Assembly (NCBI RefSeq): GCF_030409225.1
Contig: NZ_JAUFPK010000001.1
Location: 101,230 to 165,229 of the forward strand
Length of the DNA: 64,000 nucleotides
Origin: Aquisalimonas lutea
GTDB taxonomy: Bacteria > Pseudomonadota > Gammaproteobacteria > Nitrococcales > Aquisalimonadaceae
Direction of reading: 5' to 3'
Of the stretch, positions 2,816 to 34,711 are shown in pieces. Made by a program: the position numbers and the translations under genes. The notes beneath the pieces were generated by a model. That model had not been told where the DNA came from and did not search any database. It saw nothing but the letters and a program-made list of their open reading frames with translations. Each line of letters opens with the position of its first letter. Positions within the stretch are counted from its first letter, which is position 1.

Positions 2816-4333
2816 CTAGAAGAGCCCCATCGGGTTCGGGTCGTAGCTCACCAGCATGTTCTTGGTCTGCTGGTAGTGATCCAGCATCATGCGGTGGTTC
2901 TCGCGGCCGATGCCGGATTGCTTGTAGCCGCCGAACGCCGCATGCGCGGGATAGAGGTGGTAGCAGTTGGTCCAGACGCGGCCGGCCTGAATGCCACGCC
3001 CCATGCGGTAGGAGCGATTGGCGTCCCGGGTCCAGACACCGGCGCCGAGCCCGTAGAGCGTGTCATTGGCCATGTCCAGCGCCTCGGCATCATCCTTGAA
3101 CGTGGTCACTGAAACCACCGGACCGAAGATCTCCTCCTGGAACACACGCATTCGGTTGTGCCCCTTGAAGACCGTCGGCTCGACGTAGTAGCCGTTTTCC
3201 AGGCCGCTGACCGTCTGTCGCCGCCCGCCTGCGAGAAGCTCGGCACCCTCCTGCCGGCCGATGTCGATGTAGCTCAGGATCTTGTCGAGCTGCTCGGTGG
3301 ACACCTGCGCACCGATCATGGTCGAGGGATCAAGCGGATTCCCCTGCCGGATCTGCTGCCAGCGCGCGAGAACGCGGTCCATGAACCGCTCGTAAATGGA
3401 TTCCTGGATCAAGGCACGGGACGGGCAGGTGCAGACTTCACCCTGGTTCAGCGCGGTCATCAGGAAGCCTTCGACACACTTGTCGAGGAAGGCATCGTCC
3501 TCGGACATGACGTCGTCGAAGAAGATGTTGGGTGACTTTCCGCCGAGCTCCAGGGTCACCGGAATCAGATTCTCCGTGGCGTACTGCATGATCAGTCGCC
3601 CCGTCGTGGTCTCGCCGGTGAACGCCATCTTGGCGACGCGGCTGCTCGACGCCAGGGGCTTGCCGGCTTCCAGGCCGAAACCATTGACCACGTTGAGAAC
3701 GCCCGCCGGCAGCAGATCCTCGATCAGCTCCAGCAACACCAGGATGGAGACCGGGGTCTGTTCCGCAGGCTTGAGCACGACACAGTTGCCGGTGGCCAGA
3801 GCCGGAGCCAGCTTCCATGTCGCCATCAGCAACGGGAAATTCCACGGGATGATCTGCCCGACAACCCCCAGCGGCTCCTGGAAGTGATACGCCACCGTAT
3901 TGTCGTCAATCTGGCTGATCCCGCCTTCCTGGGCACGAATGGCTCCCGCAAAGTAGCGGTAGTGGTCCACGCACAGGGGAATGTCCGCGGCCAGGGCCTC
4001 CCGGACCGGTTTGCCGTTGTCCCAGGTTTCCGCCACGGCGAGCATTTCCAGGTTCTGCTCGATGCGGTCGGCGATCTTCAGCAGGACGTTGGCGCGCTCC
4101 GCATACGATGCCCGCGCCCAACCGTCCTTGGCCGCGTGCGCGGCATCCAGGGCCTTGTCGACGTCCGCCGCCGTGGATCGCGGGATCTCGCAGAATGCTG
4201 CACCATCCACCGGGCTGACGTTGTCGAAGTATTTCCCTTCGACGGGGGGCGTCCATTCGCCGTTGATGAAGTTCGCGTAGCGGGACTTGAAGTTGATCAG
4301 CGAACCGGGTTCGCCGGGCTTTTCGTAACCCAT
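2816..4333 (-). CDS. aldB: Aldehyde dehydrogenase (acetaldehyde dehydrogenase, AldB/ExaC type)
   Basis: A 505-residue NAD(P)-dependent aldehyde dehydrogenase converting acetaldehyde and similar aldehydes to acids in the cytosol. The N-terminal [13 protein letters not shown] segment is typical of the AldB/ExaC group. LELGGKSPN is the general-base region and [11 protein letters not shown] carries the nucleophilic cysteine near residue 302. An upstream in-frame ATG at 4423 is possible, but the ATG at 4333 has GGAGGAG eight bases before it and matches the family start. It is the first gene of the operon, 74 bases downstream of a sigma-54-type promoter, which suggests activation by the AcoR-like protein encoded at the operon's far end. 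Confidence 0.94.
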
Positions 4334-11869: not shown

Positions 11870-12364
11870 ATGATCGCACTCATCGCCGCCCTCACCCCCG
11901 ACCGCGTCATCGGCCGCGACAACGGGCTCCCCTGGCACATCCCCGACGACCTGCGCCACTTCAAGCGCCTGACCCGGGGCAAGCCGGTCATCATGGGACG
12001 GCGGAACTACCTCTCCATCGGCCGGCCGCTGCCGGAGCGCACCAACATCGTGCTGAGCCGCAGCCAGGACTTCGAGGCCCCGGGGTGCCGGGTGGTCGAC
12101 ACGCCCGAAGCCGCCGTGGAGGCCGCCGGCGACGCCGGCGAGATCATGGTCATCGGCGGCGCCGAGATCTACCGGCTGTTCCTTCCCCGAGCACAGCGCA
12201 TGTACCTGACCTGGGTGGAGACGGATCTCACCGGGGATACCCATTTCCCCGCCTACGACACGGCCGCCTGGCGCGTCGCGGACGAGCAGCGCCAGCCCCC
12301 GGGGGAAGGGACCCCGTACGCGCTTTGCTACCAGACCCTGGAACGATGCCCGGAGCCTTGTTGA
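11870..12364 (+). CDS. folA: Dihydrofolate reductase
   Basis: Reduces dihydrofolate to tetrahydrofolate with NADPH, closing the loop opened by ThyA. It has 164 residues. Motifs are IAALTPDRVIGRDNGLPWHI (substrate loop, Trp and the acidic residue of DDLRHFK), VIMGRRNYLSIGRPLP and VIGGAEIYRLFLP. The ATG at 11870 fits the family; a GTG four codons upstream is a possible alternative. No strong ribosome site is evident. It follows the foldback repeats and precedes a regulatory region for the MerR gene. Confidence 0.94.
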   Translation: MIALIAALTPDRVIGRDNGLPWHIPDDLRHFKRLTRGKPVIMGRRNYLSIGRPLPERTNIVLSRSQDFEAPGCRVVDTPEAAVEAAGDAGEIMVIGGAEIYRLFLPRAQRMYLTWVETDLTGDTHFPAYDTAAWRVADEQRQPPGEGTPYALCYQTLERCPEPC

Positions 12365-18220: not shown

Positions 18221-20221
18221 TCAGCCCTCGAGCACGCGTCGTGCCTCGGCGAGCACGTTGTCGACGGTAAAGCCGAAGTGCCGGAACAGGTCCCCGGCCG
18301 GCGCCGATTCGCCGAAGCCGGTCATGCCGATCACGCGTCCGCGCGGCCCGACGAAGCGGTACCAGTACTCCGCTGCCGCGGCCTCGACGGCGACCCGGCG
18401 CGTGCACGCCGGCGGCAGCACCGCTTCCTGGTAGCCGGCATCCTGCTGCTCGAACACGTCCACGGACGGCATCGACACCACCCGGGCGGCGACACCGTCG
18501 GCGCGCAGCTGCTCCCAGGCGCCCGTGGCCAGGGCCACCTCCGCGCCGGTGGCGATGAGGATCAGCTCCGGCTCACCGTCGCAGTCGCGCAGGATATAGC
18601 CGCCGCGCCGGATGGCGGCGAGCTGCTCGCCGTCGCGCTCCTGGTGCGGGAGGCCCTGGCGGCTCAGCACCAGGGCCGTCGGCCCGTCGCGGCGCTCGAT
18701 GGCGGCGCGCCAGGCGGCCACGGTCTCCACGGCATCGCACGGCCGCCAGAGGCTGAACCCGGGGATCATGCGCAGGCTCGGCAGCTGCTCCACCGGCTGG
18801 TGGGTGGGGCCGTCCTCGCCCAGCCCGATGGAGTCGTGGGTGTAGACGAGGATGTTCCGCTGCCCCATCAGCGACGCCATGCGCACCGCGTTGCGGGCGT
18901 AGTCGGAGAACACCAGGAAGGTGCCGCCGTAGGGGACGAAACCGCCGTGCAGGGCCAGCCCGCTCTGGATGGCGGTCATGGCGAACTCGCGCACGCCGTA
19001 GAAGATGTAGTTGCCGTCGCCGTCCTCGGCGGTGACCGGCGTGGAACCGGACCACTTGGTGTTGTTCGAGCCGGTGAGGTCCGCGGAGCCGCCGATGAGC
19101 TCGGGCAGGTACGGGCCGAAGCCCTCCAGGGCCTGCTGCGAGGCCTTGCGGCTGGCCACCTCGTCGCCCGCGGCCGCGGCCTTGTGCAGCAGCTCGTCGG
19201 CGTGCTCGGCGAAGGTCGCCGGCAGGTCGCCGCGCATGCGGCGCTCGAACTCCTCGGCCAGCTCCGGATGGGCGCGGCGGTAGTCCGCCAGCGCCTCCTG
19301 CCACTGCGCCTCGGCGGCGGCACCGCGATCGCGGGCGTCCCAGTCATGATAGACGGCCGGCGGCAGCTCGAAGGGGGCATGATCCCACTTGAGAAACTCG
19401 CGGGTGGCGCGGATCTCGTCCTCGCCCAGCGGCGCGCCGTGGACACCATGGGTGCCGCAGGCGTTCGGGGCGCCGAAGCCGATCACCGTCTTGCAGCAGA
19501 TCAGCGTGGGCCGGTCGGTGACGTCGCGGGCTTCGCGGATGGCGGCGTCCACCGCCGCGCTGTCGTGGCCGTCGACATCGGCGACCACGTGCCAGCCGTA
19601 GGCCCGGAAGCGCGCCGGCGTGTCGTCGGTGAACCAGCCTTCCACCTTGCCGTCGATGGAGATGCCGTTGTCATCATAGAACACCACCAGCTTGCCCAGG
19701 CCGAGGGTACCGGCCAGGGAGCACGCCTCGTGGGAGATCCCCTCCATGAGGCAGCCGTCGCCGACGAAGCAGTAGGTATGGTGATCCACCAGGGTATGGC
19801 CGGGCCGGTTGAACTGCGCGGCCAGCACCTTCTCCGCCAGGGCCATGCCCACGGCATTGGCCAGCCCCTGGCCCAGGGGGCCGGTGGTGGTCTCCACCCC
19901 CGGCGTGTAGCCGTACTCCGGGTGCCCCGGCGTGCGCGAGTGCAGCTGCCGGAAGTTGCGCAGATCGTCGACCTGCATGTCGTAGCCCGTCAGGTGCAGC
20001 AGCCCGTACAGCAGCATGGAGCCGTGCCCGTTGGAGAGCACGAACCGGTCACGGTTCCACCACCCCGGGTTGGCCGGGTTGTGGCGCATGTAGTCGTTCC
20101 AGAGGACCTCGGCGATATCCGCCATGCCCATGGGTGCACCCGGATGGCCCGACTTTGCCTGCTGCACGGCGTCCATGCTCAGGGCGCGGAGGGCGTTGGC
20201 TCGTTCACGACGGGATGGCAT
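18221..20221 (-). CDS. tktA: Transketolase
   Basis: Thiamine-diphosphate enzyme moving two-carbon units between sugar phosphates in the pentose phosphate and Calvin pathways. Its 666 residues match the family. Motifs include [37 protein letters not shown], the ThDP motif [38 protein letters not shown] and the C-terminal [15 protein letters not shown] at 20221 is used since [12 protein letters not shown] is the family start; an ATG at 20311 would add unlike sequence. First gene of tkt-epd/gap-pgk, divergent from the betaine genes. Confidence 0.95.
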
Positions 20222-20880
20222 CGATGGTGGTCTCCGGATTGCATGCGATGAAAACCGGCGCGGCGATTCCGGCCAGCCTGAAAGCCGTGAATTGTCTCGA
20301 AATATGCGCATGCGGGCAAGGCGACGCGGCCGGCGCCGGCGCCGGCCGCGACGGCCTCGCCGCCATGACGATTCCGTGAACGGAACCGATCAACGGTTGA
20401 AATCTTGTCAGAACACGGTAGCTTGTAGGGTCGTAGTTGTTCACGGAGAGCCAGACCGAAAGGAACTGGACCAATAAGATCGCCCTTCGCCGCGTACAGG
20501 CGCTCGTCATAACGATCGACCGGACGACCCGTACGCGGGAATTCACGCACCGCGCTGGCAAGGCAGCGACGTTGCGTCTCCTTCGGGCTGCTGGAGCTGG
20601 ATGACCTGCATCACCAGGTTTCCTCATCCTTCTCTGCAGCCAAAAAAGCAATAGTTTTCGAGTGCGGTTGGCTTCAGTAACGCGGAGCCCCGCAGACAGG
20701 CAGCAGACTGCACACCACCAGTGCATTCTGCATTGCGACAGTGCAGCTGTCCGGCGTCGACCCAGGGTCGCGCGTCGCAGACGTGCATCCTTTCCGGGGG
20801 CAAACCGGAGAGGCGTGCATTCTGTGGCGGCCGATCCGGGCGCCGGGCTGCACGAATACTGGACGGTGGGAGGTACGATT
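20222..20880. other. 659-base divergent intergenic region upstream of the betaine genes
   Basis: No convincing gene is seen between the tkt and GSMT starts. It holds a perfect 26-base GC palindrome (20325-20350, CGCGGCCGGCGCC and its reverse). A leader hairpin CCTTTCCGG / CCGGAGAGG lies near 20788-20812 and GGGAGG precedes the GSMT ATG. Base composition is less GC-rich than coding neighbours between about 20380 and 20660, so promoters for both directions presumably lie here, but I cannot place a confident -35/-10 pair. Confidence 0.6.
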
Positions 20881-21693
20881 ATGTCTTCGACAGCAACAGA
20901 CCAGGCGTTCGGGAGCCGACCCGAGGAATGCCGCGACACCGATCACTACGTGAACGAGTACAACCAGGGTTTCGTTGACAAGTGGGACGAGCTGATCGAC
21001 TGGGACAGCCGGGCCGAGAGCGAGGGTGACTTCTTCATCCAGACGCTCAAGGAGCGCGGCGTCAAGCGGATCCTGGACGTGGCCTGCGGCACGGGGTTCC
21101 ACTCGGTACGCCTGATCGAGGCCGGCTTCGACGTGGTCAGCACCGACGGCAGCGCCGAGATGCTGGCCAAGGCGTTCGAGAACGGCTACCAGCGCGATCA
21201 TGTCCTGCGCACCGCCCTGGCCGACTGGCGCTGGCTGAACCGGGACATCCACGGCCGCTACGACGCCGTGATCTGTCTCGGCAACTCCTTCACCCACCTT
21301 TTCAACGAGAACGATCGCCGCAAGGCGCTGGCCGAGTTCTACTCCGCCCTCAACCACGACGGCATCCTGATCCTGGACCAGCGCAACTACGACTCGATCC
21401 TGGATCACGGCTACTCCAGCAAGCATACCTACTATTATTGCGGTGATGACATCTCGGTGTATCCGGAGTACGTGGACCCGGGCCTGACCCGTTTCCGCTA
21501 CGAGTTCCCGGACAAGTCCGTGTACCACCTGAACATGTTCCCGCTGCGCAAGGCCTACACGCGCCGGCTCATGCGGGAGGTGGGCTTCCAGCACATCGAG
21601 ACCTACGGCGACTTCAAGGAGACGTTCCGGGAGACCGAGCCGGACTTCTTCATCCACATCGCCGAGAAGAGCTACCAGGAGGCGGACGAATGA
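20881..21693 (+). CDS. gsmt: Glycine/sarcosine N-methyltransferase
   Basis: Cytosolic SAM-dependent enzyme methylating glycine to sarcosine and sarcosine to dimethylglycine, the opening steps of glycine betaine synthesis. Its 270 residues match the Ectothiorhodospira/Halorhodospira enzyme length. The hallmark is an N-terminal HYVNEYNQGFVDKWDELIDW followed by SAM motif I ILDVACGTGFHSVRL (64-78) and the acidic STDGSAEM. The ATG at 20881 follows GGGAGGTACGATT. Its stop overlaps the next methyltransferase start by four bases. Expression is expected to rise with salinity, but no osmotic promoter was recognised. Confidence 0.95.
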   Translation: MSSTATDQAFGSRPEECRDTDHYVNEYNQGFVDKWDELIDWDSRAESEGDFFIQTLKERGVKRILDVACGTGFHSVRLIEAGFDVVSTDGSAEMLAKAFENGYQRDHVLRTALADWRWLNRDIHGRYDAVICLGNSFTHLFNENDRRKALAEFYSALNHDGILILDQRNYDSILDHGYSSKHTYYYCGDDISVYPEYVDPGLTRFRYEFPDKSVYHLNMFPLRKAYTRRLMREVGFQHIETYGDFKETFRETEPDFFIHIAEKSYQEADE

Positions 21694-22529
21694 GTAACAC
21701 CAACTACACCGGCGCCGTCGCCACGGCGCGCGAGTACTACAACAGCGACGACGCGGATCGCTTCTACCACACGGTCTGGGGCGGCGAGGACATCCACGTG
21801 GGCCTCTACGAGAGCGACGAGGAGCCCATCGCCGATGCCAGCCGCCGCACGGTCGCCCACATGGCGGACCTGCTCGGCGAGCTCACCCCGGAGCACCGGA
21901 TCCTGGACCTGGGTGCGGGCTACGGCGGTACCGCCCGCTACCTGGCGCAGACGTTCGGCTGCCCGGTGGTGGCGCTGAACCTCTCCGAGGTGGAGAACGA
22001 GCGCGACCGCGAGATGAACAAGGCGGTCAACCTGGACCACCTCATCGAGGTGCTGGACGCCAGCTTCGAGGAGGTGCCGTACCCGGACAACCACTTCGAC
22101 GTGGTCTGGTCCCAGGACTCGTTCCTGCACAGCGGCGATCGCGAGAAGGTCATCCACGAGGCGGCGCGGGTGCTCAAGCCCGGCGGCGTGCTGATCTTCA
22201 CCGATCCCATGCAGACCGACGACTGCCCGGAGGGCGTGCTGCAGCCCATCCTCGACCGCATCCACCTGGAGACCCTCGGGTCCCCGGGGTTCTACCGGCG
22301 CACCACCAAGGAGGCCGGGCTGGAGGAGATCGGGTTCGAGGATCACTCCCATCAGCTGCCGCGCCATTACGGCCGTGTGCTCGAGGAGACCAAGTCGCGC
22401 GAGGACAGCCTTGAAGGCATCATCTCCCGCGAGTACATCGAGCGCATGAAGCAGGGGCTTCAGCACTGGGTCAATGGCGGCAACAATGGCTACCTGGCCT
22501 GGGGCATCTTCCGCTTCCGCAAGGCCTGA
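21690..22529 (+). CDS. sdmt: Sarcosine/dimethylglycine N-methyltransferase
   Basis: Finishes betaine synthesis by methylating sarcosine and dimethylglycine with SAM. It has 279 residues. AREYYNSDDADRFYHTVWGG and EDIHVGLY near the N-terminus are typical, followed by SAM motif I ILDLGAGYGGTARYL (71-85) and VWSQDSFLHS. AGGAGG sits eight bases before the ATG, and the start overlaps the GSMT stop as ATGA. GSMT and SDMT are separate proteins here; some organisms fuse them. The next gene, metK, makes its methyl donor. Confidence 0.95.
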   Translation: MSNTNYTGAVATAREYYNSDDADRFYHTVWGGEDIHVGLYESDEEPIADASRRTVAHMADLLGELTPEHRILDLGAGYGGTARYLAQTFGCPVVALNLSEVENERDREMNKAVNLDHLIEVLDASFEEVPYPDNHFDVVWSQDSFLHSGDREKVIHEAARVLKPGGVLIFTDPMQTDDCPEGVLQPILDRIHLETLGSPGFYRRTTKEAGLEEIGFEDHSHQLPRHYGRVLEETKSREDSLEGIISREYIERMKQGLQHWVNGGNNGYLAWGIFRFRKA

Positions 22530-22542
22530 TCAGCGCCGGATG

Positions 22543-22576
22543 GATCGCGTGCCGCCGGCACGGCGGGCACGCGATC
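22543..22576 (+). terminator. Strong hairpin between SDMT and metK (attenuator or stabiliser)
   Basis: GATCGCGTGCC and GGCACGCGATC form an 11-bp stem that continues as GCCG/CGGC around a GCA loop with one bulged G. No T-run follows, so it is not a classical terminator. It may attenuate readthrough or protect the gsmt-sdmt message from decay while metK is expressed separately. Confidence 0.5.
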
Positions 22577-22619
22577 GGCAACCGGCTTCCTGAATCTCGA
22601 CACGAAAAAAGGAGTACCC

Positions 22620-23780
22620 ATGAGCAAGTCCTACATGTTTACCTCGGAGTCCGTCTCCGCCGGCCATCCGGACAAGATGGCGGACCAGATTTCCGACGCG
22701 GTGCTGGACGCCATCCTGGAGCAGGATCCCAAGGCCAAGGTGGCCTGCGAGACGCTGACCACCACCGGCATGATCATGCTCGCCGGCGAGCTCAAGACCA
22801 CGGCCAACGTGCCGTTCGAGGACATCGCCCGCGCCACCACCAAGCGCATCGGCTACACGTCCTCCGACATGGGCTTCGACGCCGACACCTGCGCGTTCAT
22901 CAACGCGCTGGGCAAGCAGTCCCCGGACATCAACCAGGGCGTCGAGCGCAAGCTCCCCGAGGAGCAGGGCGCCGGCGACCAGGGCATCATGTTCGGCTAC
23001 GCCTGCGACGAGACCGATGTCTACATGCCGGCGGCCATCAACTATGCCCACCGCCTGGTGGAGCAGCAGGCCAACCTGCTGGCCAACGGCAAGCTCAAGT
23101 GGCTGCGGCCGGACGCCAAGAGCCAGGTCACCCTGCGCTACGAGGACGACCGCGCCGTGGGCGTGGATGCCGTGGTGCTGTCCACCCAGCACTCCGACGA
23201 CGTCAGTGACAACGAGATCCACGAGGCGGTGATGGAAGAGATCATCAAGCCGGTGCTGCCGAGCCAGTGGATCGACAACAACACCAAGTTCCACATCAAC
23301 CCGACCGGGCGCTTCGTGGTCGGCGGGCCGATGGGCGACTGCGGCCTGACCGGGCGCAAGATCATCGTCGACACCTACGGCGGCATGGCCCGCCACGGCG
23401 GCGGTGCCTTCTCCGGCAAGGACCCGTCCAAGGTGGACCGTTCCGCCGCCTACGCCGCGCGCTACGTGGCCAAGAACGTGGTCGCGGCCGGCCTAGCGAG
23501 CAAGTGCGAGGTGCAGCTGTCCTACGCCATCGGCGTGGCCGAGCCCACCTCCGTGATGGTGGAGACCTTCGGCACGGCCAAGATCGAGGAGTCCAAGATC
23601 GAGAAGATCGTGCGCGACCAGTTCGACCTGCGTCCGTTCGGCATCGTCAACACGCTGGACCTGCTGCGCCCGATCTACTCCAAGACCGCGGCCTACGGCC
23701 ACTTCGGCCGCGAGGATGCGGACTTCACCTGGGAGCGGACCGACAAGGCCGCGGCCCTGAAGGACGCCGCCGGCCTCTGA
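22620..23780 (+). CDS. metK: S-adenosylmethionine synthetase
   Basis: Makes SAM from methionine and ATP. The 386 residues include [33 protein letters not shown] (ATP motif) and [19 protein letters not shown] (P-loop-like). AAGGAG lies upstream of the ATG. It stands 90 bases after the betaine methyltransferases and supplies the three SAM needed per glycine betaine. No SAM riboswitch is seen in front of it, unlike the SAH switch before ahcY. Confidence 0.97.
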
Positions 23781-23904
23781 GCCGACGCGGTCCGCTGGTC
23801 GCGGGGAACGAAACGCTGCTCGCGTGCGTCCCCGTGATCGGCACCATGCCATGCGGCGGTGCCCGGCAGGCATCGCCAGGGGTCGCCGGCCGCCGTGCGG
23901 CCGG

Positions 23905-23960
23905 CCGTCCGGCTGAGGAGCGCTGCAACAGGCACTGCGCCTGCCAGGCTCAGCCGGATG
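23905..23960 (+). ncRNA. S-adenosylhomocysteine (SAH) riboswitch
   Basis: The sequence carries the conserved core GAGGAGCGCTGCAAC (23915-23929) and AGGCTC (23946-23951). A perfect ten-base P1 stem, TCCGGCTGAG / CTCAGCCGGA (23908-23917 / 23949-23958), encloses a short hairpin GGC-ACTGC-GCC. This is the layout of the SAH riboswitch family, which turns on ahcY and methyl-cycle genes when SAH accumulates. It lies 46 bases before the ahcY ATG and within the betaine cluster, so it can relieve product inhibition of GSMT/SDMT. Confidence 0.9.
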
Positions 23961-24006
23961 CCTACTCATACCAACGGCGCTATGGAAACAATCGGAGCCA
24001 GCACCA

Positions 24007-25413
<1,407 letters not shown>

Positions 25414-25442
25414 GCGACGCCTTTCAGTCCCCGGGTTGCACG

Positions 25443-25462
25443 GGCGGGCCTCCGGGCCCGCC
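25443..25462 (+). terminator. Hairpin after ahcY, no T-run
   Basis: GGCGGGCC-TCCG-GGCCCGCC is a perfect eight-base stem with a UCCG loop. A second hairpin with GGTGGGC / GCCCACC stems lies at 25479-25504. Both are in the 119-base ahcY-metF gap. Without a T-tract they more likely attenuate or stabilise RNA than fully terminate. Confidence 0.4.
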
Positions 25463-25532
25463 GGCGCGACCCGTCCCGGTGGGCCGGCGACCGGCCGCGC
25501 CCACCGGCGATTCCCGCGATACGGGGGTGATT

Positions 25533-26414
25533 ATGGAATCCCAGAAGAAACACTCGCCGGTTTTCAGTTTCGAGTTCTTCCCGCCCAAGAACGAGGAGGG
25601 GGAGGAGCGGCTGCGCAAGACCCGGGAGCGCCTGCAGGCGCTGGGTCCGCGCCTGTTCTCGGTGACGTTCGGCGCGGGTGGTTCCACGCGCGAGCGGACC
25701 TTCGAGACCGTCGTCGACATCCAGAAGCGTTCCGGCATCGACGTCGCGCCGCACCTGTCCTGCATCGACGCGACGCCGGACAGCATCCGCGAGCTGCTGG
25801 GCCGCTACCGCGACAACGGCATCCGCAACATCGTCGCGCTGCGCGGCGACATGCCGTCCGGCACCGGCGGCGGGCCGGGCCACTTCAAGTACGCCAACGA
25901 GCTGGTGGAATTCATCCGCCAGGAGCACGGTGACCATTTCCACATCGAGGTGGGCTGCTACCCGGAAATCCACCCGGAAGCCCGGAACGCCTTCGCGGAT
26001 CTGGAGAACTTCAAGCGCAAGGTCGAGGCCGGTGCCGACAGCGCCATGACCCAGTACTTCTTTGCGCCGGAAGGGTACTACCGGTTCGTGGAGAGCTGCG
26101 AGAAGATGGGGGTAAACATTCCCATCGTGCCGGGCATCATGCCCATCGTGAACTTCCAGCAGCTGGCGCGCTTCTCCGACATGTGCGGGGCCGACATCCC
26201 GCGCTGGCTGCGCAAGCGCCTGGAGGCCTACGACGCCAACGGCGACAAGGAGTCCATGCAGGCCTTCGGCGTGGACGTGGTCACGCAGATGTGCTCCGAG
26301 CTCCTGGACGCCGGCGCGCCCGGCCTGCACTTCTATACGCTGAACCAGGCCAAGGCGTCCGAGGCCATCTGGAACAACCTGGGGCTCAGCCAGAAGATGG
26401 CGCAGGCGGACTGA
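25533..26414 (+). CDS. metF: 5,10-methylenetetrahydrofolate reductase
   Basis: Flavoenzyme producing 5-methyl-THF, the methyl donor for homocysteine remethylation. The 293 residues begin MESQKKHSPVFSFEFFPPKN, with the catalytic Glu in FEFFPPK. Other motifs are SVTFGAGGSTR, HLSCIDATPD, NIVALRGDMP and the FAD/NADH region FFAPEGYY. ATG at 25533 is the family start. As the last gene of the betaine module it completes the methyl-supply loop, and it may share the SAH-riboswitch transcript with ahcY. Confidence 0.95.
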   Translation: MESQKKHSPVFSFEFFPPKNEEGEERLRKTRERLQALGPRLFSVTFGAGGSTRERTFETVVDIQKRSGIDVAPHLSCIDATPDSIRELLGRYRDNGIRNIVALRGDMPSGTGGGPGHFKYANELVEFIRQEHGDHFHIEVGCYPEIHPEARNAFADLENFKRKVEAGADSAMTQYFFAPEGYYRFVESCEKMGVNIPIVPGIMPIVNFQQLARFSDMCGADIPRWLRKRLEAYDANGDKESMQAFGVDVVTQMCSELLDAGAPGLHFYTLNQAKASEAIWNNLGLSQKMAQAD

Positions 26415-26434
26415 GCCGCCGCGCCGTTGCAACC

Positions 26435-26468
26435 ATCGCCCCCGCGGAGCCCGGCTCCCGGGGGCGAT
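26435..26468 (+). terminator. Terminator between convergent metF and rsmE
   Basis: ATCGCCCCCG and CGGGGGCGAT form a perfect ten-base inverted pair that can extend inward (CGG-AGCC-CGG). It is followed by TCCGTTT. It lies between converging genes, so it may serve both, and it closes the betaine module. Confidence 0.7.
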
Positions 26469-26475
26469 TCCGTTT

Positions 26476-27207
26476 CTAGCCGAGATCGCCCCGGAGTGTC
26501 TGCAGGGCGGTCAGGGCGACAATGCCGGCGGTTTCCGTGCGCAGCACGCGCGGCCCCATGCGCACGGGCTGGAAGCCGTGTGCACGCGCGGCCGTCACCT
26601 CGTCACTGTTGAGACCGCCTTCCGGGCCGACCAGCAGCGTGCATGCGGCCGCCTCCGGCAACTGCAGCGCGCGGATGCGCTCGCCGCCCTCCGGGTCCAG
26701 GAAAAGACGCGGCCCCTCGGGCAGGGCAGCCCAGCACTGGCCCAGGGACACCGGCTCGCGGAGCTCGGGGATGACGTTGCGTCCGCATTGCTCACACGCG
26801 CTGACGGCGACGCCGTGCCAGTGCCCGAGCTTCTTGCGCAGCCGTCCGGGCTCGGTATTGACCACGCTGCGTGCGGTGATCACCGGCACGATGGCCTGGA
26901 CGCCGAGCTCCACGGCCTTCTGGATGGTCCAGTCCATGCGGTCGCCCTTGCTGATGCCCTGGACCAGGGTCGTCCGCAGGGGGGATTCCGCGCCCTCGCT
27001 CACCGGCGCCTCCAGGCGCACCGTCCCGCGGCGCCGCTCCAGCGCCACCAGCACGGCGCGGTAGCTGGTGCCGGCACCGTCGAAGATCACCAGCTCGTGG
27101 CCGGGCCGCAGGCGCAGCACCCGGAGATGGTTCGCGGCCGCCCCTTCCAGGGTATATTCCGCCCCTTCCGCGAGCGGCCCGGGGAGGTGAATGCGGGGGA
27201 TGCGCAC
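26476..27207 (-). CDS. rsmE: 16S rRNA (uracil-1498-N3)-methyltransferase
   Basis: SPOUT-fold methyltransferase modifying U1498 of 16S rRNA. Its 243 residues begin RIPRIHLPGPL with an N-terminal PUA-like domain (about 1-70). The knotted SAM site includes LLVGPEGGLNSDEV and the C-terminal LGPR-VLRTETA-type motif (RMGPRVLRTETAGIVAL). It starts nine bases after the CheW-like chpC stop, so it may be transcribed from the chemosensory operon, though its function is housekeeping. Confidence 0.94.
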   Translation of the reverse strand: MRIPRIHLPGPLAEGAEYTLEGAAANHLRVLRLRPGHELVIFDGAGTSYRAVLVALERRRGTVRLEAPVSEGAESPLRTTLVQGISKGDRMDWTIQKAVELGVQAIVPVITARSVVNTEPGRLRKKLGHWHGVAVSACEQCGRNVIPELREPVSLGQCWAALPEGPRLFLDPEGGERIRALQLPEAAACTLLVGPEGGLNSDEVTAARAHGFQPVRMGPRVLRTETAGIVALTALQTLRGDLG

Positions 27208-27215: not shown

Positions 27216-27683
27216 TCAGTGGTGCAGGGCACCGCGGATCCAGCCCTCCACCGCGGCCAGATCGGGGATCAGCGCCGGCTCGCCGTGGGCCAGAACCGCC
27301 TGCTGGATCCCTTGCGGCGGCGCTTCCTCGTCCCTGATCTCCAGCCCTTCCCGCTCGACATTGATCAGCCGCGGGATACTCCGGGTACGCACGGCGATGT
27401 ACGGCAAGGTCGGGTCCTCGCCCACGGCCTTGAGCACGACCAGCCGGGCCCGCGCACCGGCGCCCTCCGGCAGGGACTGTCCGTCCAGGGATTCAAAGGC
27501 GACGCACGGCACCCGCTGGCCGCGCCAGTCGATGGAGCCCAGCAGCCAGTCCGGGGCGCCGTCACCCGCCGGTTCCGGCGGGACATACCCCACCACCTCG
27601 GCGACCACGGTCCCGGGCAGGAGGAGATTGTCGTCCTCCAGGGGCAGCAACAGGCTACGGATGGCGTCCTCTTGTTCCGGCAT
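27216..27683 (-). CDS. chpC: CheW-like coupling protein ChpC of the type IV pilus Chp system
   Basis: A 155-residue CheW-fold adaptor expected to link chemoreceptor and kinase ChpA. Sequence features fit a diverged CheW: LLLPLEDDNLLLPGTVVAEVVGY at the N-terminus and WLLGSIDWRGQRVPCVAFE in the middle. The ATG at 27683 begins MPEQEDAI; the frame remains open upstream but is antisense-like. Eighth in the order pilG-H-I-J-K-chpA-B-C, which matches Pseudomonas aeruginosa and supports the name more than sequence alone. Confidence 0.85.
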   Translation of the reverse strand: MPEQEDAIRSLLLPLEDDNLLLPGTVVAEVVGYVPPEPAGDGAPDWLLGSIDWRGQRVPCVAFESLDGQSLPEGAGARARLVVLKAVGEDPTLPYIAVRTRSIPRLINVEREGLEIRDEEAPPQGIQQAVLAHGEPALIPDLAAVEGWIRGALHH

Positions 27684-27741
27684 ACCGCTTCGTCCTCGTT
27701 GATGGTCTTCGCCCGCGCCGCGGCGGGCTTCGCGCCCCGTT

Positions 27742-28713
27742 CTACAGCGGGGCCGCAGCGCGCAGGTACTGCACCATGGCCCGGGCCAGCTCTTCCGGGC
27801 TGCCGCGGCGGCTGACAACACCGGTTTCCGCCGCACTGTCCGGCATGCTGCTGATGGCGCAGCTGCCGGCGTCCTGGGCCCAGACCTCGCCGCCGGCGTC
27901 GGCGATGGCCCGCGCTCCCTCGGCACCGTCGTCGCCCATGCCGCTGAAAACGATCGCCGCCGCGCGCGGCCCGAACCCCCGGGCCATCTCCGCCATGGCC
28001 GCGTCGATGCAGGGGCTGTACGAGCGATCGCCCACCGGATCCGGCTCCAGCATGACACGGTGATCCTCGGTCAGCCGGAGCCTCCGGTCAACGGGCATGA
28101 CGTGGACGTGCCCCGGGCGCAGGATCGCGCCGGAGACCAGGGGCAGGACCTGGAACGGCGTCGACCGGTTGAGCTGCGCCGAGAGCAGATCCACGAAGCC
28201 GTCACCGATATGCTGGACCAGGAGGAACGCGGCGTCCGGCACCTCCGGGATCGATTCCAGGAACCGCTTCACCGCCTCGGGCCCGCCGAACGAAGCCCCC
28301 AGGACCCAGTAGTCGGGCGCCTGCGGCGGCTCCGGCTCCGCGGGCTCGACACCGCCGGCATCGGGGGTCGCAATGGCGGCCAGCTTGCCCGCCAGGCGCC
28401 GCATCCAGACGTTCTCGTGCTCCGCCGGTGCATCCTCGTTGAACAGCACCGGGGGCAGTCCCTCCAGGGCGAGAAGATCCGGCAGGGCATCCAGCCCGTG
28501 GTCGTCCATGGCGTGCAGGTCCACGAGCATGACCTGTACGGGCTCCCGGCCGCCGGCGCCCAGAAAGCCGTGCAGGTCATCCTCGACGGCGACCGCAAGC
28601 CCGTACCTCTCCAGGCCGTCCCGCAGCGCCTGCCGGGACGGCCCCGGGGTACCGATCAGTCCCACGCGAACGGGGGCCCGACGGGTTTGGGCGGATGTGT
28701 CAGTGGCCCCCAT
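27742..28713 (-). CDS. chpB: Chemoreceptor methylesterase ChpB
   Basis: CheB-type methylesterase removing methyl groups from the PilJ receptor. The 323 residues have a catalytic triad consistent with Ser141 (LGASFGGPEAV), His168 (LLVQHIG) and Asp262 (FSGMGDDGAEG). The N-terminal receiver-like domain (about 15-115) is degenerate, with a possible Asp65, as in other ChpB. The start overlaps the end of chpA by 14 bases. It works opposite the methyltransferase encoded at 34712-35599. Confidence 0.9.
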   Translation of the reverse strand: MGATDTSAQTRRAPVRVGLIGTPGPSRQALRDGLERYGLAVAVEDDLHGFLGAGGREPVQVMLVDLHAMDDHGLDALPDLLALEGLPPVLFNEDAPAEHENVWMRRLAGKLAAIATPDAGGVEPAEPEPPQAPDYWVLGASFGGPEAVKRFLESIPEVPDAAFLLVQHIGDGFVDLLSAQLNRSTPFQVLPLVSGAILRPGHVHVMPVDRRLRLTEDHRVMLEPDPVGDRSYSPCIDAAMAEMARGFGPRAAAIVFSGMGDDGAEGARAIADAGGEVWAQDAGSCAISSMPDSAAETGVVSRRGSPEELARAMVQYLRAAAPL

Positions 28714-31700
28714 GACCCTGCGTCAGCACCTCGTCCAGGTTGCCCAGCAGCTCCGACTCCTGGTACGGCTTGCCCAGGTAGCGGTCCACGCCGATATCCA
28801 GCGCCCGCGCCCGGTGCTTCTCGCCCGTGCGCGAGGTAATCATGATGATCGGCACATGCTGCAGGCGTTCGTCGTTGCGCATGTGCGTAGCGAGCTCATA
28901 ACCGTCCATGCGCGGCATTTCGATATCCAGCAGCATGGCGTCCGGGACATGCTCCTGGAGCTTGGCCACGGCGTCGACACCGTCGTTCGCGGTGATGACC
29001 TGCATGTGGTTGCGCTCCAGCAGCCGCGAGGCGACCTTGCGCATGGTGATGGAGTCATCCACCACCATGACCAGGGGCTCGGGCTGGGCCTGCTCGGCGT
29101 CCTCGTCCGCCGCGGCCGCGGGCAGGGCCTCGTCGCCCGGGGCGGCCTCCGCGACGCCCTGGCGCATCAGGGCGCTCATCTCCAGGATGAACACCACGCG
29201 CCCGTCGGCCAGGATGGTGGCGCCGTAGATCCCGGGGACATTGCTGATCTGCGGCCCGACGGACTTCACCACGATCTCCCGGGAGCCGATCAGGCCGTCG
29301 ACCTGCAGCGCCAGGCGGTGATCGCCGCTCTGCAGCAGCACCAGGGGTACCCGGGTGCCCTGCCCGGCCAGGTTGGGCTCGCCCTCGCCGAGGATCACCG
29401 ACAGCGACGTGATCTCGTAGTCCTGGCCGGCATAGTGGTACAGGGCTTCGTCCTCCCGCGCCAGGTAGGTCTCCATCTGGTCGCGGGTGATGCGGACCAC
29501 GCCGTCGATGCTGGTCAGGGGGATGGCGTACGCCTGGTCGCCGGCGGTGCACAGCAGCGCCTGGTTCATGGCCAGCGTAAAGGGCAGCCGCACCACGAAG
29601 CGCGTGCCGCGGCCGCGCTCGGAATCGATGTCCAGGGAGCCGCCCAGCTGCTTGATCTCGGCGTTGACCACGTCCATGCCCACGCCGCGGCCGGCGACCT
29701 GGGTCACCTCATGGGCCGTGCTGAAGCCCTGCTCCATGACGAACTGCATGACCTCGCGGTCCGTGGGCTCGCGCTCGTCCCGGAGGAGGCCGCGCTCCCG
29801 GGCCTTGCGCCGGATGGCATCCAGGTCCATGCCGCTGCCGTCGTCGGAGACGCGCAGCACGATGTCGGCGCCTTCGCGATCCAGGGTCAGCTCGATCTGC
29901 CCCGCGTCGGGCTTGCCGGCCGCGCGCCGCTGCTCCGGCGTCTCGATCCCGTGCGCCACGGCGTTGCGCAGCATGTGCTCCAGGGGCGCAACGATGCGGT
30001 CGAGCACGGTCCGGTCCATCTCGCCCTGGGCGCCGTGCACCCGGATACGCGCCTCGCGGCCGAGCTCGGCGGCCGTCTGCCGGACCACCCGGCGCAGCCG
30101 CGGGACGAGGCTGGCGAAGGGAACCATGCGGGTGCGCATGAGCCCGTCCTGGAGCTCGGTGTTGACCCGCGACTGCTGCAGCAGCAATGTCTCCGACTCC
30201 CGCGCCAGGTTGTCCAGCAGCGACTCGATGCTGGCCAGGTCGTTCACGGACTCCCCCAGGCCCCGGGAGAGCTCCTGCATGCGGGAATACCGGTCCAGCT
30301 CCAGCGGATCGAACTGCTCGTCGCCATCCGGGGCGTCCGCTGCGGAGACCCCGCCGTCCTCGGCGGCGCGCTCGTGACGATAGAGAATCTGGGCCTCGGT
30401 CTCGATCTCCAGGGTCCGCAACTGGTCGCGCAGTCGCTGCACGGTCTGGTCCAGCTCGGTGAGGTTGAACCGGAAGGCCCCCACCTGCTGGTCCAGCCGG
30501 GCCCGGTAGATGCTGACCTCGCCGGCATAGTTGACGAGGTTGTCCAGCAGGTCGGCCCGCACCCGGATCTGGTCGCCGCCGCTCGGCGAGGCGGTCTCGC
30601 TCGCGGCCGCGCCCGGCTGGTCGCCGGCGGCGCCGTCGGCGGGACGCTCGGCCGGGGCGGAATCCGTGTCGCCGGTATCCGGTGCCCCCGGCGCCTCCCC
30701 CTGCTGCCATTGCCGCAGCGCTGCCAGCAGGTCCTCGGCCTCGGCCAGGCGCTGGCCCTGTACGGCATGCTCGCGCATGAGATGCAGCCGGTCGTGGCAG
30801 CGCTCCAGGAGCTCGAACAGGCCGGCGTCCGGCACCGTGCCGGCATCGCGGAGCTGCACCAGCAGGCTCTCCAGGGCGTGGCTCAGATTGGCCACCGGCG
30901 TGTACCCGGCCATGCGGGCGCCGCCCTTGAGCGTGTGCAGGGCCCGCTCCAGGTCATGGATCCGGTCGGTCTCTTCCGGGGCATCCACCCAGGCCTGCTG
31001 GGCGGCCTCGATGTTCTGGAGGAGCTCCGCCGCCTCGTCGACGAAGACCTCGCGAAGCTCGCTGTCGCCCTCTTCCGGGGGGTCCGCCTCGGCGGCCGCG
31101 GGCGCCGGATGACCGGATTCCGGCCGCAGTGCCTGCAACCGCTCCACGGTCGCCGCGGCGTCGCCGCTGTCGCCCTGCTCCCGGGCAAGGGCCACCATGC
31201 CCTGAAGCTGGTCGTAACCGTCGCGCACGGCGGCGAGGACCTCGTCGTCCGCCGCGAGCTGGCCATGCTCCAGGTCGGCCACCCGCTGTTCCAGGGCGTG
31301 GCAGACACCGGCAACGCCGTCGAAGCGCGCCAGCCGGGCACCGCCCTTCAGGGTGTGCAGGGAGCGCTGCATCTCGGCCAGCGCCCCTTCGTGCGCCGGA
31401 TCGTCCTCCAGGCGCTCCATGGTCTCGTCCATGAAGCGCAGGATATCGTCGGCCTCCTCCAGGAACAGCTCGACCAGATCCGGGTCGATCTCGGCTTCCT
31501 GGCTCGCCTCCCCGGCCCCCCGGTCCGCCGCCGTATCCTCCGGCGCATCGGGCTCGGCGCCGCCGGAGGTGGTGTCCGGGGCGCTGTCGCCGAGCTCCGC
31601 CAGCTCGGCAATTTCGCCGTGAAGCCCGTCGGCATCCGGCAGCGCCGTCCCCTCCCCCAGCGCCTGCACCATGGCCTCCAGCTGCTCGGCGCCGCGGGCG

Positions 31701-34696
31701 ACGACATCGCGCTCCCGTGCCTCCAGGGGGCGATCCTCGTCGCGCCGGCTTGCGGCGAGCAGCTCCAGGTCCCGCGCCAGTGCGGCCACGGCCTGGACAT
31801 CGGCCATCCGTGCGCTGCCGCTCAGGGTATGGAGCCCGCGCAGGAGATCGTCGGTCACGGTGCCGTCGCCGCTGGCCTCGGCATGCGCCAGGAACGCGTG
31901 CACCGTCCGCAGATGGTCGTCGGTCTCGTTGCGGAAGATCTCGTAGAGGGTGGGATCCATTCCCGGCGACGGCGCCCCGGCTTCGTCCTCGTCCTGGGCG
32001 GTCTCCCCGCGCCAGGATCGTTCCCCGTCGTCATCGTCGGCGTCTTCTTCCGGCGCACCGACCGGGGCGGGCCCGAGGTCCGCAGCCTCGGCACCGGTGT
32101 CGGACTCCGCTACCGCCGCCTCGTCAGGGATCTCCTCTTCTGCGGTCTCCGGCACGGCGCCGGGTTCCGTTGTCCCTTCCATGTCCGCCGTCGGGAGCAC
32201 CGAGTCCACCGAGGCCTCCGGGGGCTCGCCCCCGGAGGCCTCGGTCGCGGCATCGCCGTGGTCGTCCGCCGCCCCGGCTCCGGAGGCCTCGGACGGGTCC
32301 TGATCCGGTTCCGGGGGAGGCTCCGGATCGGGCGCCGGCTGCCCGTCCGCCAGGCGCACCGCCTCGCGCATGAGCCCGCGCACGTCGGCAACCGGCGGCT
32401 CGCCGCCCTGGAGCTCGCGCACGAGCTGCGGGATAGCGGCCAGCGTGTCGTCCATGAGGGTGAACACGTCGGAAACCGGGGTCACGTGGCCGTCGATGAT
32501 CCGGTTGAGAAGCCGCTCTACCGACCAGGCGAGCTCGCCGAGCAACAGGGCGCCCGCCAGCCGCCCGCTGCCCTTGAGGGTGTGGAACATCCGCCGGACC
32601 GTGATCAGCGGCTCCTGCTCCTCGGGGTTGGCCCGCCAGCGCGGATACGCGTCGTGGATGGTCTCCAGGCATTCGTCGACTTCTTCCAGGAAGATCTCGA
32701 GGATCTCCGGGTCCAGCTCGTCCGCCGCCACCGGAACCTGCAGGTCCACGCCGCCGCTCGCGCCGGTGCGCCCCGGCGCGGCGGGAGCGGGCGTGCCCTC
32801 CGCGGCGGCAGGAGCCGGCGAGGCCTCGCCGCCGTGCCCGTCCTCCGCCGAACCCGTCTCCGCATCCGGTTCCCGGGCTTCGGCATCCCGCGAGGCGTCG
32901 TCGGCGGCGACATCGCCGTCGCCGGTCTCCGACGTCGAGTTCCCGTCCGCGTCGGCGGTGGATGCCCGGTCCTCCGCGGGGGTTTCCCCGTCATATCCGA
33001 GGACGCGAACGCTGTTCTCGGCGACATCGAGAATGGTCTCGCGGCCGCTGCGGTTCTCCAGCACCGCCTCCAGGTAGTACTCGAGGCTGGTAATGGCATC
33101 CGCCAGGGCATCCATGCGCTCCTCGGCCGGCAGCTCCGGCGACGCCATGACCTCTTCGCGGATGCAGCGGCCGGCCGCTTCCAGCAGTCCGCCGGCGCGC
33201 TGCAGGTCCAGCATCTCCAGGGCACCCTGGAGGCGACGGAGAAGCGTTTCCATGCCGGCGAGCGGCTCCTCGCCGCGCTGTTCCATCAGCGCCACCAGGG
33301 CTTCCTTGATGGTGCCGATATCGGCGACGGCCTCCCGGATCGCCGTCTGGTAGACGGCCCGGTATTCCAGGTCGAACAGGTCGTCGTCCTGGAGTGCCAC
33401 CGTCTCCTCGCCCAGCTCCATGGTGCCGGCTTCGCCCACGGAGGGCTCGTTGGTCTCCGTCAGCCCCTCCAGCGCGGACTCCACGTACAGCAGGGCCCGG
33501 GCGAAGTCCATGAGCTCCTGCTCGTCCGCGGCGCCACCACCGGCGAGCCGCTCGACGCGCTCCACCTGCTCCCGCACTACGCGGCGCGGGACGCCGAGCC
33601 CCAGCATGCCCAGCGTGTCGGCGACCCGCCGCAGCATGTCGCCCACGCCGCCGAGCCGCTCCGGTTCCTGCTGCTCGCTGCGGACGTAGAGATCCAGGGC
33701 GTCCTTGATCGCGGTGATGTCCTCGCGCAGGGCATCGGAGACGCTGCGCAGGATGTCCGAGCCCGGCCGGTAGCCGCCGTTTTCCTGGTTGCGGGCCCGC
33801 TCGCCGGCATCGGGCAGCAACGCCCCCAGGGAGAAACGCTCCTGGATGGCACCGAGGCGCTCGGTACTCGCCCCGGACTGCCCGACGTAGTACAGCATGT
33901 TCTTGAGCAGATCCCGGGGCGGGCTCTCGGCAAGCACCTGCTCGCCGTGATCGATCACCTGCTTGAGCTGGCGGTCCACCTGGCCAAGCAGGCTCTTCAC
34001 CGCCGCCGTGGCCTCCAGGTCGCCGTTGCGCAGACCGTCCACGACCCCGGCTGCAATCCACCAGAGATCGCCGGTGCGATCATCCCCGGCCGCGGCGTCG
34101 AGCTGATCGAGAACGGTCTGCATGCGCTCGAGGCTGCGCTCCACCGCCTGGCCGCGCAGATAGGCCAGCAGGGCGCGCTGGTACAGGTGCCGGTGCTGCC
34201 GTGCCAGCCCCGCGATGGAGGCCTCGCTGCGCTCGTGCCGCGGCCGGGGCTGGGCGGCGTCGAGGTTCGGCGCGAACAGCGTGCTCTCGGTGAGCAGGGG
34301 CTCGCCGCGCGCGGCGCGCAGGTCGTTGAGAAGGGGCAGGACCAGCAGGCCGCTGTCCTGCTCGCCCTGCTGGATGCGCTCCAGGTAGTCGGACACGGAC
34401 AGAATGCCGCGCATCAGGGTCTCTTCACCCTCGCCCGGCTGCGCCAGATCGCCGTTCACCAGGCCGTCGAGGACGTGCTCCATCTCCTCGACGAGCATGG
34501 ACAGCCCGTAGAGCTCGAGCATCTGCAACGTGCCGTAGACCTGGTGCAGATAGGTCATGCAGAACCGCAGCTGCGTGCGATCACTGCGGTCCTCGGCGTA
34601 TTCCTCGAGTGCCTGGGCGGACTGCTGGAGCGTCTCCTCCAGCTCCTTGCGGACCCATCCCAGGGTGCTCGTGTCGTTGTACCGCTCACTGGTCAT
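28700..34696 (-). CDS. chpA: Hybrid chemosensory histidine kinase ChpA (PilL)
   Basis: Central kinase of the pilus chemosensory system, 1998 residues. Phosphotransfer (Hpt) histidines are in HTLKGSGRL (near 705), HTLSGSARM (near 953), HTLKGGARL (near 1111) and HTLKGGARM (near 1252), separated by long acidic linkers. An N-terminal Hpt/FimL-like region lacks clear histidine motifs. Next are the dimerisation helices (about 1380-1450), the ATPase N-box LRNAVAHGIE (near 1580) and G-box GRGVGMDVV (near 1668), and a CheW domain (about 1705-1840). A C-terminal receiver follows with LLDIEMPRMDGY (near 1924). ATG 34696 is 15 bases after the CheR stop. P. aeruginosa ChpA is longer, so fewer phosphotransfer modules are present here. 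Confidence 0.93.
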   Translation of the reverse strand: MTSERYNDTSTLGWVRKELEETLQQSAQALEEYAEDRSDRTQLRFCMTYLHQVYGTLQMLELYGLSMLVEEMEHVLDGLVNGDLAQPGEGEETLMRGILSVSDYLERIQQGEQDSGLLVLPLLNDLRAARGEPLLTESTLFAPNLDAAQPRPRHERSEASIAGLARQHRHLYQRALLAYLRGQAVERSLERMQTVLDQLDAAAGDDRTGDLWWIAAGVVDGLRNGDLEATAAVKSLLGQVDRQLKQVIDHGEQVLAESPPRDLLKNMLYYVGQSGASTERLGAIQERFSLGALLPDAGERARNQENGGYRPGSDILRSVSDALREDITAIKDALDLYVRSEQQEPERLGGVGDMLRRVADTLGMLGLGVPRRVVREQVERVERLAGGGAADEQELMDFARALLYVESALEGLTETNEPSVGEAGTMELGEETVALQDDDLFDLEYRAVYQTAIREAVADIGTIKEALVALMEQRGEEPLAGMETLLRRLQGALEMLDLQRAGGLLEAAGRCIREEVMASPELPAEERMDALADAITSLEYYLEAVLENRSGRETILDVAENSVRVLGYDGETPAEDRASTADADGNSTSETGDGDVAADDASRDAEAREPDAETGSAEDGHGGEASPAPAAAEGTPAPAAPGRTGASGGVDLQVPVAADELDPEILEIFLEEVDECLETIHDAYPRWRANPEEQEPLITVRRMFHTLKGSGRLAGALLLGELAWSVERLLNRIIDGHVTPVSDVFTLMDDTLAAIPQLVRELQGGEPPVADVRGLMREAVRLADGQPAPDPEPPPEPDQDPSEASGAGAADDHGDAATEASGGEPPEASVDSVLPTADMEGTTEPGAVPETAEEEIPDEAAVAESDTGAEAADLGPAPVGAPEEDADDDDGERSWRGETAQDEDEAGAPSPGMDPTLYEIFRNETDDHLRTVHAFLAHAEASGDGTVTDDLLRGLHTLSGSARMADVQAVAALARDLELLAASRRDEDRPLEARERDVVARGAEQLEAMVQALGEGTALPDADGLHGEIAELAELGDSAPDTTSGGAEPDAPEDTAADRGAGEASQEAEIDPDLVELFLEEADDILRFMDETMERLEDDPAHEGALAEMQRSLHTLKGGARLARFDGVAGVCHALEQRVADLEHGQLAADDEVLAAVRDGYDQLQGMVALAREQGDSGDAAATVERLQALRPESGHPAPAAAEADPPEEGDSELREVFVDEAAELLQNIEAAQQAWVDAPEETDRIHDLERALHTLKGGARMAGYTPVANLSHALESLLVQLRDAGTVPDAGLFELLERCHDRLHLMREHAVQGQRLAEAEDLLAALRQWQQGEAPGAPDTGDTDSAPAERPADGAAGDQPGAAASETASPSGGDQIRVRADLLDNLVNYAGEVSIYRARLDQQVGAFRFNLTELDQTVQRLRDQLRTLEIETEAQILYRHERAAEDGGVSAADAPDGDEQFDPLELDRYSRMQELSRGLGESVNDLASIESLLDNLARESETLLLQQSRVNTELQDGLMRTRMVPFASLVPRLRRVVRQTAAELGREARIRVHGAQGEMDRTVLDRIVAPLEHMLRNAVAHGIETPEQRRAAGKPDAGQIELTLDREGADIVLRVSDDGSGMDLDAIRRKARERGLLRDEREPTDREVMQFVMEQGFSTAHEVTQVAGRGVGMDVVNAEIKQLGGSLDIDSERGRGTRFVVRLPFTLAMNQALLCTAGDQAYAIPLTSIDGVVRITRDQMETYLAREDEALYHYAGQDYEITSLSVILGEGEPNLAGQGTRVPLVLLQSGDHRLALQVDGLIGSREIVVKSVGPQISNVPGIYGATILADGRVVFILEMSALMRQGVAEAAPGDEALPAAAADEDAEQAQPEPLVMVVDDSITMRKVASRLLERNHMQVITANDGVDAVAKLQEHVPDAMLLDIEMPRMDGYELATHMRNDERLQHVPIIMITSRTGEKHRARALDIGVDRYLGKPYQESELLGNLDEVLTQGHGGH

Positions 34697-34711
34697 TCGT
34701 CGCACCCACGT

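Follow-up and report, generated by a model that had tools for sequence, protein, structure and literature searches.

An SAH-class riboswitch between metK and ahcY in a betaine operon of Aquisalimonas lutea

Riboswitches of the SAH class act in the ON direction. In Proteobacteria, according to the available passages of PMC4239095, ahcY and metF are their core targets; the switches mostly precede ahcY together with metF, and metK is not under their control. These passages place no betaine synthesis genes in the SAH regulons and name no transfer of a switch, and the word "betaine" occurs in them once, for a homocysteine methyltransferase. The SAM/SAH riboswitch of Rhodobacterales senses the same metabolite group but is another Rfam family, reported before metK.

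Betaine clusters that include genes for SAH removal have also been described. PMC7824335, a paper mainly on phototrophs, presents the five-gene cluster GMT-DMT-MAT-SAHase-MTHFR of Halorhodospira and its logic, including the removal of SAH; in its accessible passages, Halorhodospira is called the only gammaproteobacterial group with this cluster, and the word "riboswitch" is absent. An archaeal betaine cluster with SAH hydrolase and SAM synthetase is described in PMC3176816. As stated in the accessible part of that paper, three SAH are released per betaine made from glycine, and betaine can reach molar levels in some cells. The burden of methylation is therefore unusually heavy. In the open-licence literature, searched mostly at listing level, we found no report of an SAH riboswitch in a betaine operon.

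The locus studied here lies in a 64,000-nucleotide stretch of the A. lutea genome (the window). Its switch shares with the Rfam SAH family (RF01057) the sequence core, P1, the pseudoknot, the location before ahcY and apparently P2, and differs in lacking the outermost pseudoknot pair and in having gsmt-sdmt upstream of metK. As in the regulons outlined in PMC4239095, ahcY-metF would stand under the switch and metK outside it. The gene order gsmt-sdmt-metK-ahcY-metF is that of the Halorhodospira cluster, in which we found no SAH switch. In comparison with the account in the available passages of PMC7824335, all five genes are present in Aquisalimonas and the first four in Arhodomonas, Kushneria and Aidingimonas. 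We consider it quite probable that the SAH-class switch in the ahcY leader is inherited and serves housekeeping control, and that gsmt-sdmt were placed upstream of it later in Aquisalimonas.

The riboswitch and the surrounding operon

Based on a cmscan search of the whole window, the full RF01057 model (1-78) was matched with 59.1 bits against a gathering score of 37 (E 2.4e-8). This was the sole above-threshold match to any Rfam family in the window, the SAM/SAH family included among those without a match. The covariance search had been proposed in the first-pass annotation, which placed the SAH core at 23905-23960; this interval covers P1 and P2 and leaves out the linker and the 3' arm of the pseudoknot (Table 1). 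The perfect ten-base P1 described there is literally present, and Rfam counts seven of its ten pairs as P1. No other Rfam riboswitch was found in the window, hence none before metK, as the annotation had also held. The RF01057 search found no second copy elsewhere in the genome and no match in 14 control genomes. The element is a member of the known SAH riboswitch class.

Table 1. Features of the A. lutea betaine locus, in window positions
Feature	Position	Strand	Basis
tkt, transketolase, divergent neighbour	18221..20311	-	Pfam; marks the old locus
gsmt, glycine/sarcosine methyltransferase	20881..21693	+	NF051855, 500.6 bits, cut-off 350, on the longer ORF 20662-21693
sdmt, sarcosine/dimethylglycine methyltransferase	21690..22529	+	NF041675, 472.6 bits
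metK, SAM synthetase	22620..23780	+	TIGR01034, 626.5 bits
SAH riboswitch RF01057	23909..23989	+	59.1 bits, full model
P1 5' strand, 10 nt	23908..23917	+	sequence; covariation of 7 Rfam pairs, 36 relatives
pseudoknot 5' arm	23918..23923	+	sequence, fold, alignment of 36
P2 hairpin, 5 pairs, loop of 5	23929..23943	+	sequence, fold, Rfam alignment
P1 3' strand	23949..23958	+	sequence; covariation
pseudoknot 3' arm	23977..23982	+	sequence, fold, alignment of 36
GGAG, ribosome-binding site of ahcY	23994..23997	+	sequence, 9 nt before ATG
ahcY, adenosylhomocysteinase	24007..25413	+	TIGR00936, 618.3 bits
metF, methylenetetrahydrofolate reductase	25533..26414	+	PF02219, 314.9 bits, on the longer ORF 25008-26414
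RNA-methyltransferase-domain gene	26476..27207	opposite to the betaine operon, like tkt	Pfam

The two P1 strands pair along their whole length, P2 is formed by 23929-23933 with 23939-23943, and the pseudoknot by 23919-23923 with 23977-23981; the outermost pseudoknot position (23918/23982) is occupied by G and A and is unpaired. The match ends 17 nt before the ahcY start, and the ribosome-binding site of ahcY begins 12 nt past the last paired pseudoknot base. Across the 36 relatives, 94% of the P1 cells are paired, with changes on both sides at five of the seven pairs. None of 500 P1 shuffles attained the observed paired cells, double-change cells or covariation score, while the number of double-change pairs was attained by 179 shuffles and the number of pair types by 391. 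P2 cells are paired in 58% of cases in the sequence alignment of the 36, where P2 lengths vary. For the pseudoknot the value is 98.6%, with four of the six pairs invariant and none showing a double change inside the order.

A GC-rich hairpin (23885-23905, + strand) just 5' of P1 is predicted in all four Aquisalimonas copies with differing stem letters. As a part of the riboswitch it was rejected, showing no clear stability excess over shuffles (z -0.4, -1.9, -1.3 and -1.6 in Aquisalimonas).

The profile matches agree with the earlier placement of the switch inside a gsmt-sdmt-metK-ahcY-metF array with ahcY directly downstream. All genes from gsmt to metF are on the same strand, gsmt and sdmt overlap by 4 nt, and metF begins 119 nt past ahcY. 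The GSMT match exceeds the equivalog cut-off (500.6 against 350 bits). SDMT falls below the curated cut-off of NF041675 (472.6 against 550 bits), yet this is its best family by far and is matched over nearly its full length. The gsmt start was chosen from GGGAGG and ATG in the sequence, from which the metF start was also taken. Both metK and ahcY are single-copy in the genome at E<=1e-50. In a simple scan of 20200-26600 on both strands, which covers promoter kinds incompletely, no promoter-like or terminator-like sites were found. One transcript may run from gsmt to metF, yet the 128-nt gap between metK and the switch could hold a promoter.

The switch locus in the order and among betaine clusters

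Among 54 genomes of the order, 36 contained a switch over threshold and 27 a GSMT over its cut-off. All 36 switches (35 fetched loci and the window) sit between metK and ahcY on the same strand. In six of them gsmt-sdmt lie directly upstream of metK, namely in the window and three further loci of the same genus (G001, G002 and G004), in Arhodomonas aquaeolei (G030) and in an uncultured member of Ectothiorhodospiraceae (G031). The contig of the fifth Aquisalimonas genome (G003) stops after sdmt and is uninformative on the switch. The 30 switch loci without betaine genes upstream have an opposite-strand tkt before metK in 28 cases (exceptions L063 and L073), and in Aquisalimonas gsmt-sdmt are positioned between tkt and metK. 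On this comparison the switch predates the operon that surrounds it and did not originate with betaine synthesis: in 30 of the 36 loci, no gsmt-sdmt lie upstream in the stretch read. The first-pass annotation had described a betaine-operon device, and this part of it was not supported in that form. Furthermore, 14 of the 27 genomes with GSMT carry the switch, and in eight of these 14 the two are unlinked.

Two minor features were seen in the order. In four genomes of one sister genus (L074, L079, L080 and L088), about 20-50 extra bases stand between the switch and the ahcY ribosome-binding site, some with a hairpin-like stretch. Seven genomes (L041, L042, L043 and others) have a lower-scoring GSMT relative (271-284 bits, below the cut-off), perhaps the "B-type GMT" named in the available text of PMC7824335.

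Trees were built from rows with more than 80% coverage (52 for ahcY, 60 for metK and 36 for GSMT), in whose aligned translations stops would appear as X. A single origin of the nine betaine-linked loci as one clade was rejected for ahcY (p 1e-8), GSMT (1.4e-6) and metK (2.7e-7), the groups for this and the other clade tests having been defined after the first ahcY tree was seen, so that the p values do not come from a blind test. Aquisalimonas ahcY belongs to a group of 14 rows (100/99), of which 13 represent its own family and the remaining row a different family of the order. Its metK also groups with its own family (97), the nearest relative (support 94) being in an Ectothiorhodospiraceae MAG (L106) with gsmt-sdmt-metK at 832-3731 and no ahcY in its 8 kb. 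It follows that either gsmt-sdmt joined the old metK, or gsmt-sdmt-metK arrived together and replaced it. The second possibility, in which the present metK would be a newcomer, counts somewhat against the reading preferred here. In Arhodomonas, ahcY stands in its own group and metK with the cassettes of Halorhodospira, Ectothiorhodospira and Thioalkalivibrio (100), so this metK seems to have arrived with gsmt-sdmt. The GSMT of Aquisalimonas is separate from that of the Arhodomonas-Kushneria-Aidingimonas set in the tree, the two groups being moderately supported (94 and 83). Taken from these trees, betaine genes appear to have met a switch-ahcY unit more than once, which is new here.

The best 80 of 327 GSMT relatives from species genomes were read and scanned with a model built from the 36 switches of the order; many of the 80 loci end at contig ends, which makes the counts lower bounds. 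At least eight of these best 80 bear a switch (E<=1e-7), and Rfam agrees for all eight, two of them (L102 and L103) being G002 and G001, matched as order genomes. At least 14 of the best 80 have gsmt-sdmt-metK-ahcY in a row, seven with the switch and seven without it. The former are two Aquisalimonas, Arhodomonas, the uncultured Ectothiorhodospiraceae, Kushneria sinocarnis and two Aidingimonas. No switch was found in L111, L142 and L149 (Halorhodospira), L114, L123 and L124 (Ectothiorhodospiraceae) or L163 (Halomonas sp. LBP4), L123 giving one chance-level match (16.5 bits, E 0.7). In most of these switchless clusters the metK and ahcY matches are 36-53 nt apart. The absence of the switch from Halorhodospira-type cassettes is new here. 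In the eighth switch locus, that of Alloalcanivorax, metK-switch-ahcY-metF precedes gsmt-sdmt. Also common among the best 80, in the Ectothiorhodospira and Thioalkalivibrio loci, is gsmt-sdmt-metK without ahcY in the stretch read.

The metK and ahcY matches of L142 (Halorhodospira abdelmalekii) are separated by 134 nt (11910-12043) with no SAH switch and an apparent long inverted repeat.

The second switch in Halomonadaceae

By NCBI taxonomy, Aquisalimonas and Arhodomonas belong to Ectothiorhodospiraceae, and Kushneria and Aidingimonas to Halomonadaceae. The genomes of Kushneria (G054) and two Aidingimonas (G055, G056) each contain two switches, two metK and two ahcY, and the second metK-switch-ahcY set sits in the betaine cassette. 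In a census of 121 Halomonadaceae genomes, made with filters that drop some weak matches, 53 had the switch and only these three had two. GSMT was found in four of the 121; in the fourth genome (G068), gsmt-sdmt-metK is present, the 11.5 kb retrieved around it contain no ahcY, and a single native switch lies at another site.

Native ahcY of the double-switch genomes is about 51% identical to that of the window, and cassette ahcY 73-74%. In the tree, the cassette ahcY of all three genomes are placed in a group of 37 rows (100/97) and, inside it, in a group of 22 (98/94), the remaining rows of which come from genomes of the window's order and a Halomonas sp. cassette; with weaker support (90/71) they lie near Arhodomonas and G031. 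The native copies form a separate group with Alloalcanivorax (100/100). A clade uniting the cassette copies with the native ones of Halomonadaceae was rejected for ahcY (p 0.003) and not for metK (p 0.059), so the argument for transfer rests on ahcY and the pseudoknot type and not on metK.

As for the pseudoknot, its 5' arm is GGGCGC in 50 of 50 native Halomonadaceae copies, 49 of which have GCGCCC as the opposite arm and the remaining one GUGCCC. The three double-switch genomes also have GGGCGC in their native copies. In the order, each of the 36 copies carries A as the second base of the 5' arm, with U opposite, so that the pseudoknot of the window's order differs from that of native Halomonadaceae copies by a double change, A-U against G-C. 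The three cassette copies are of the A-U type. Since the Rfam consensus also has A-U at this position, the mark shows only that the cassette copy is no recent duplicate of the native one, and it is the ahcY tree that points to the donor. Apparently, then, the switch moved with the betaine cassette between distant bacteria, which is new here. A riboswitch travelling with a metabolic cassette between families would be a useful example of the spreading of RNA control.

A wider scenario can be put forward tentatively, at somewhat less than even confidence. Betaine genes would have joined a switch-controlled ahcY independently, at least twice, and the portable gsmt-sdmt-metK-switch-ahcY cassette would then have crossed from relatives of Ectothiorhodospiraceae to Halomonadaceae, adding to the native system another loop for the clearance of SAH. 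The switch would have been kept since it lets this clearance keep pace with the methylation load, and the Halorhodospira-type extreme halophiles would have lost it when that load became constant. Most worth following are the assembly of this arrangement more than once and the joint transfer that cassette and switch seem to have undergone; the element itself is of a known kind in an informative place.

Proposed control of ahcY and other readings

Building on direct observations (family membership, position, occurrence of the switch locus in relatives that have no betaine genes at this site, and single-copy metK and ahcY), we suggest the following scheme. By analogy with the class, accumulating SAH would be bound by the RNA, P1 and the pseudoknot would be held in place, and expression of ahcY would increase. 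Translation is the most likely level of control, given the 12 nt between the last paired pseudoknot base and the ribosome-binding site and the fact that no terminator was found. The switch would be the inherited control of a locus with divergent tkt and metK-switch-ahcY, in some cases followed by metF. The Aquisalimonas arrangement would have arisen when gsmt-sdmt, perhaps accompanied by a metK from within that bacterial family, came to lie between tkt and the switch-ahcY unit. The same switch would now also meet SAH from betaine synthesis, with its three methylations per betaine, and a benefit could be expected during salt stress. This control may or may not extend to metF.

The folds of the 36 leaders contained no conserved helix blocking the ribosome-binding site. 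Pairing of this site was lower with P1 fixed than in unconstrained folds in 14 of the 36 leaders (mean 0.53 fixed against 0.45 unconstrained), and the folding energy model has no pseudoknots, which makes this test weak in both directions. A simple model in which the P1 3' strand blocks the site when SAH is absent was discarded as a mechanism common to the leaders, since the pairing predicted was 0.00 for the window and 0.02 on average for the 36. The pseudoknot 3' arm as the blocking strand is not general either (0.35 in the window, 0.75 in Arhodomonas, mean 0.10 in the 36).

It is possible, if somewhat doubtful, that the switch is a bystander, with the betaine genes having joined metK for SAM supply and the old switch persisting by inertia without effect on betaine output. 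The frequent gsmt-sdmt-metK arrays without ahcY in Ectothiorhodospira and Thioalkalivibrio and the seven switchless clusters of the same gene order, mostly with the short metK-ahcY spacing given above, would fit this, all of them among the best 80 of 327 GSMT loci. Against it, a cassette switch with an intact core has been kept in three Halomonadaceae that already own a switch-controlled ahcY.

The same three genomes, Kushneria and the two Aidingimonas, whose cassettes retain their own switch beside the native one, speak for a betaine-specific device, placed or kept so that SAH clearance tracks osmolyte synthesis. So do the betaine-linked switches of Aquisalimonas, Arhodomonas and the uncultured Ectothiorhodospiraceae. 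The inhibition of GSMT and SDMT by SAH, assumed in the first-pass annotation, is in print (PMC3176816, accessible part): the GSMT activity of the archaeal homologue is halved by 0.05-0.07 mM SAH, whereas the bacterial GSMT/SDMT are less sensitive (Ki 0.3-2.3 mM). We regard this reading as rather unlikely, given that gsmt-sdmt are missing upstream in 30 of the order's 36 switch loci and that seven of 14 four-gene clusters (best 80 of 327 GSMT loci) have no switch; Halorhodospira-type cassettes manage without one. The separation of ahcY control from that of metK, which the annotation had pointed out, is general for the class and already published (PMC4239095, available passages). Its causal story as a whole is plausible and not specific. 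With an SAH sensor inside a betaine operon, nature provides a way to ask if osmolyte synthesis is limited by the removal of SAH. Ready-made comparisons are offered by Kushneria and Aidingimonas, whose two switches differ in pseudoknot type, and by Halorhodospira, which shares the gene order but lacks a switch.

Action of the switch on transcription, by termination or Rho, with joint control of ahcY and metF, has little in its favour beyond the place of metF next after ahcY and its core membership in SAH riboswitch regulons (PMC4239095, as far as available). The simple scan, confined to promoter-like and terminator-like sites, gave none of the latter in 20200-26600, and the interval between the match and the ahcY start is just 17 nt; we consider such a mechanism distinctly improbable. 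Decay of the Aquisalimonas copy to the point where SAH is no longer bound well is very unlikely, for although the outermost pseudoknot pair, kept in 33 of the 36 copies, is absent from three of the four Aquisalimonas copies (including that of the window) and from none of the other 32, P1 and the other five pseudoknot pairs are retained at a score of 59.1 bits, and the lost pair lies at the helix end in three copies of one genus that may represent one event. With regard to the inherited switch preferred here, this loss may mean lower or re-tuned SAH affinity, or one chance event.

Two further features of the window should be mentioned. The gsmt leader of about 570 nt contains a long hairpin (20586-20641, + strand), and its block has one match in each of the five Aquisalimonas genomes and none in the 49 others of the order. 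In all five, 19 of 20 pairs are kept, with one pair broken in one genome and one double change; the leader had no Rfam match at E<=1. The hairpin is a candidate for a new cis-element of the betaine operon, acting as RNA or as protein-binding DNA. Downstream, a chemotaxis-type cluster on the minus strand (27216-34705) includes CheW-domain and CheB-domain genes and a histidine kinase of 2001 residues with five Hpt stretches and CheW and receiver domains.
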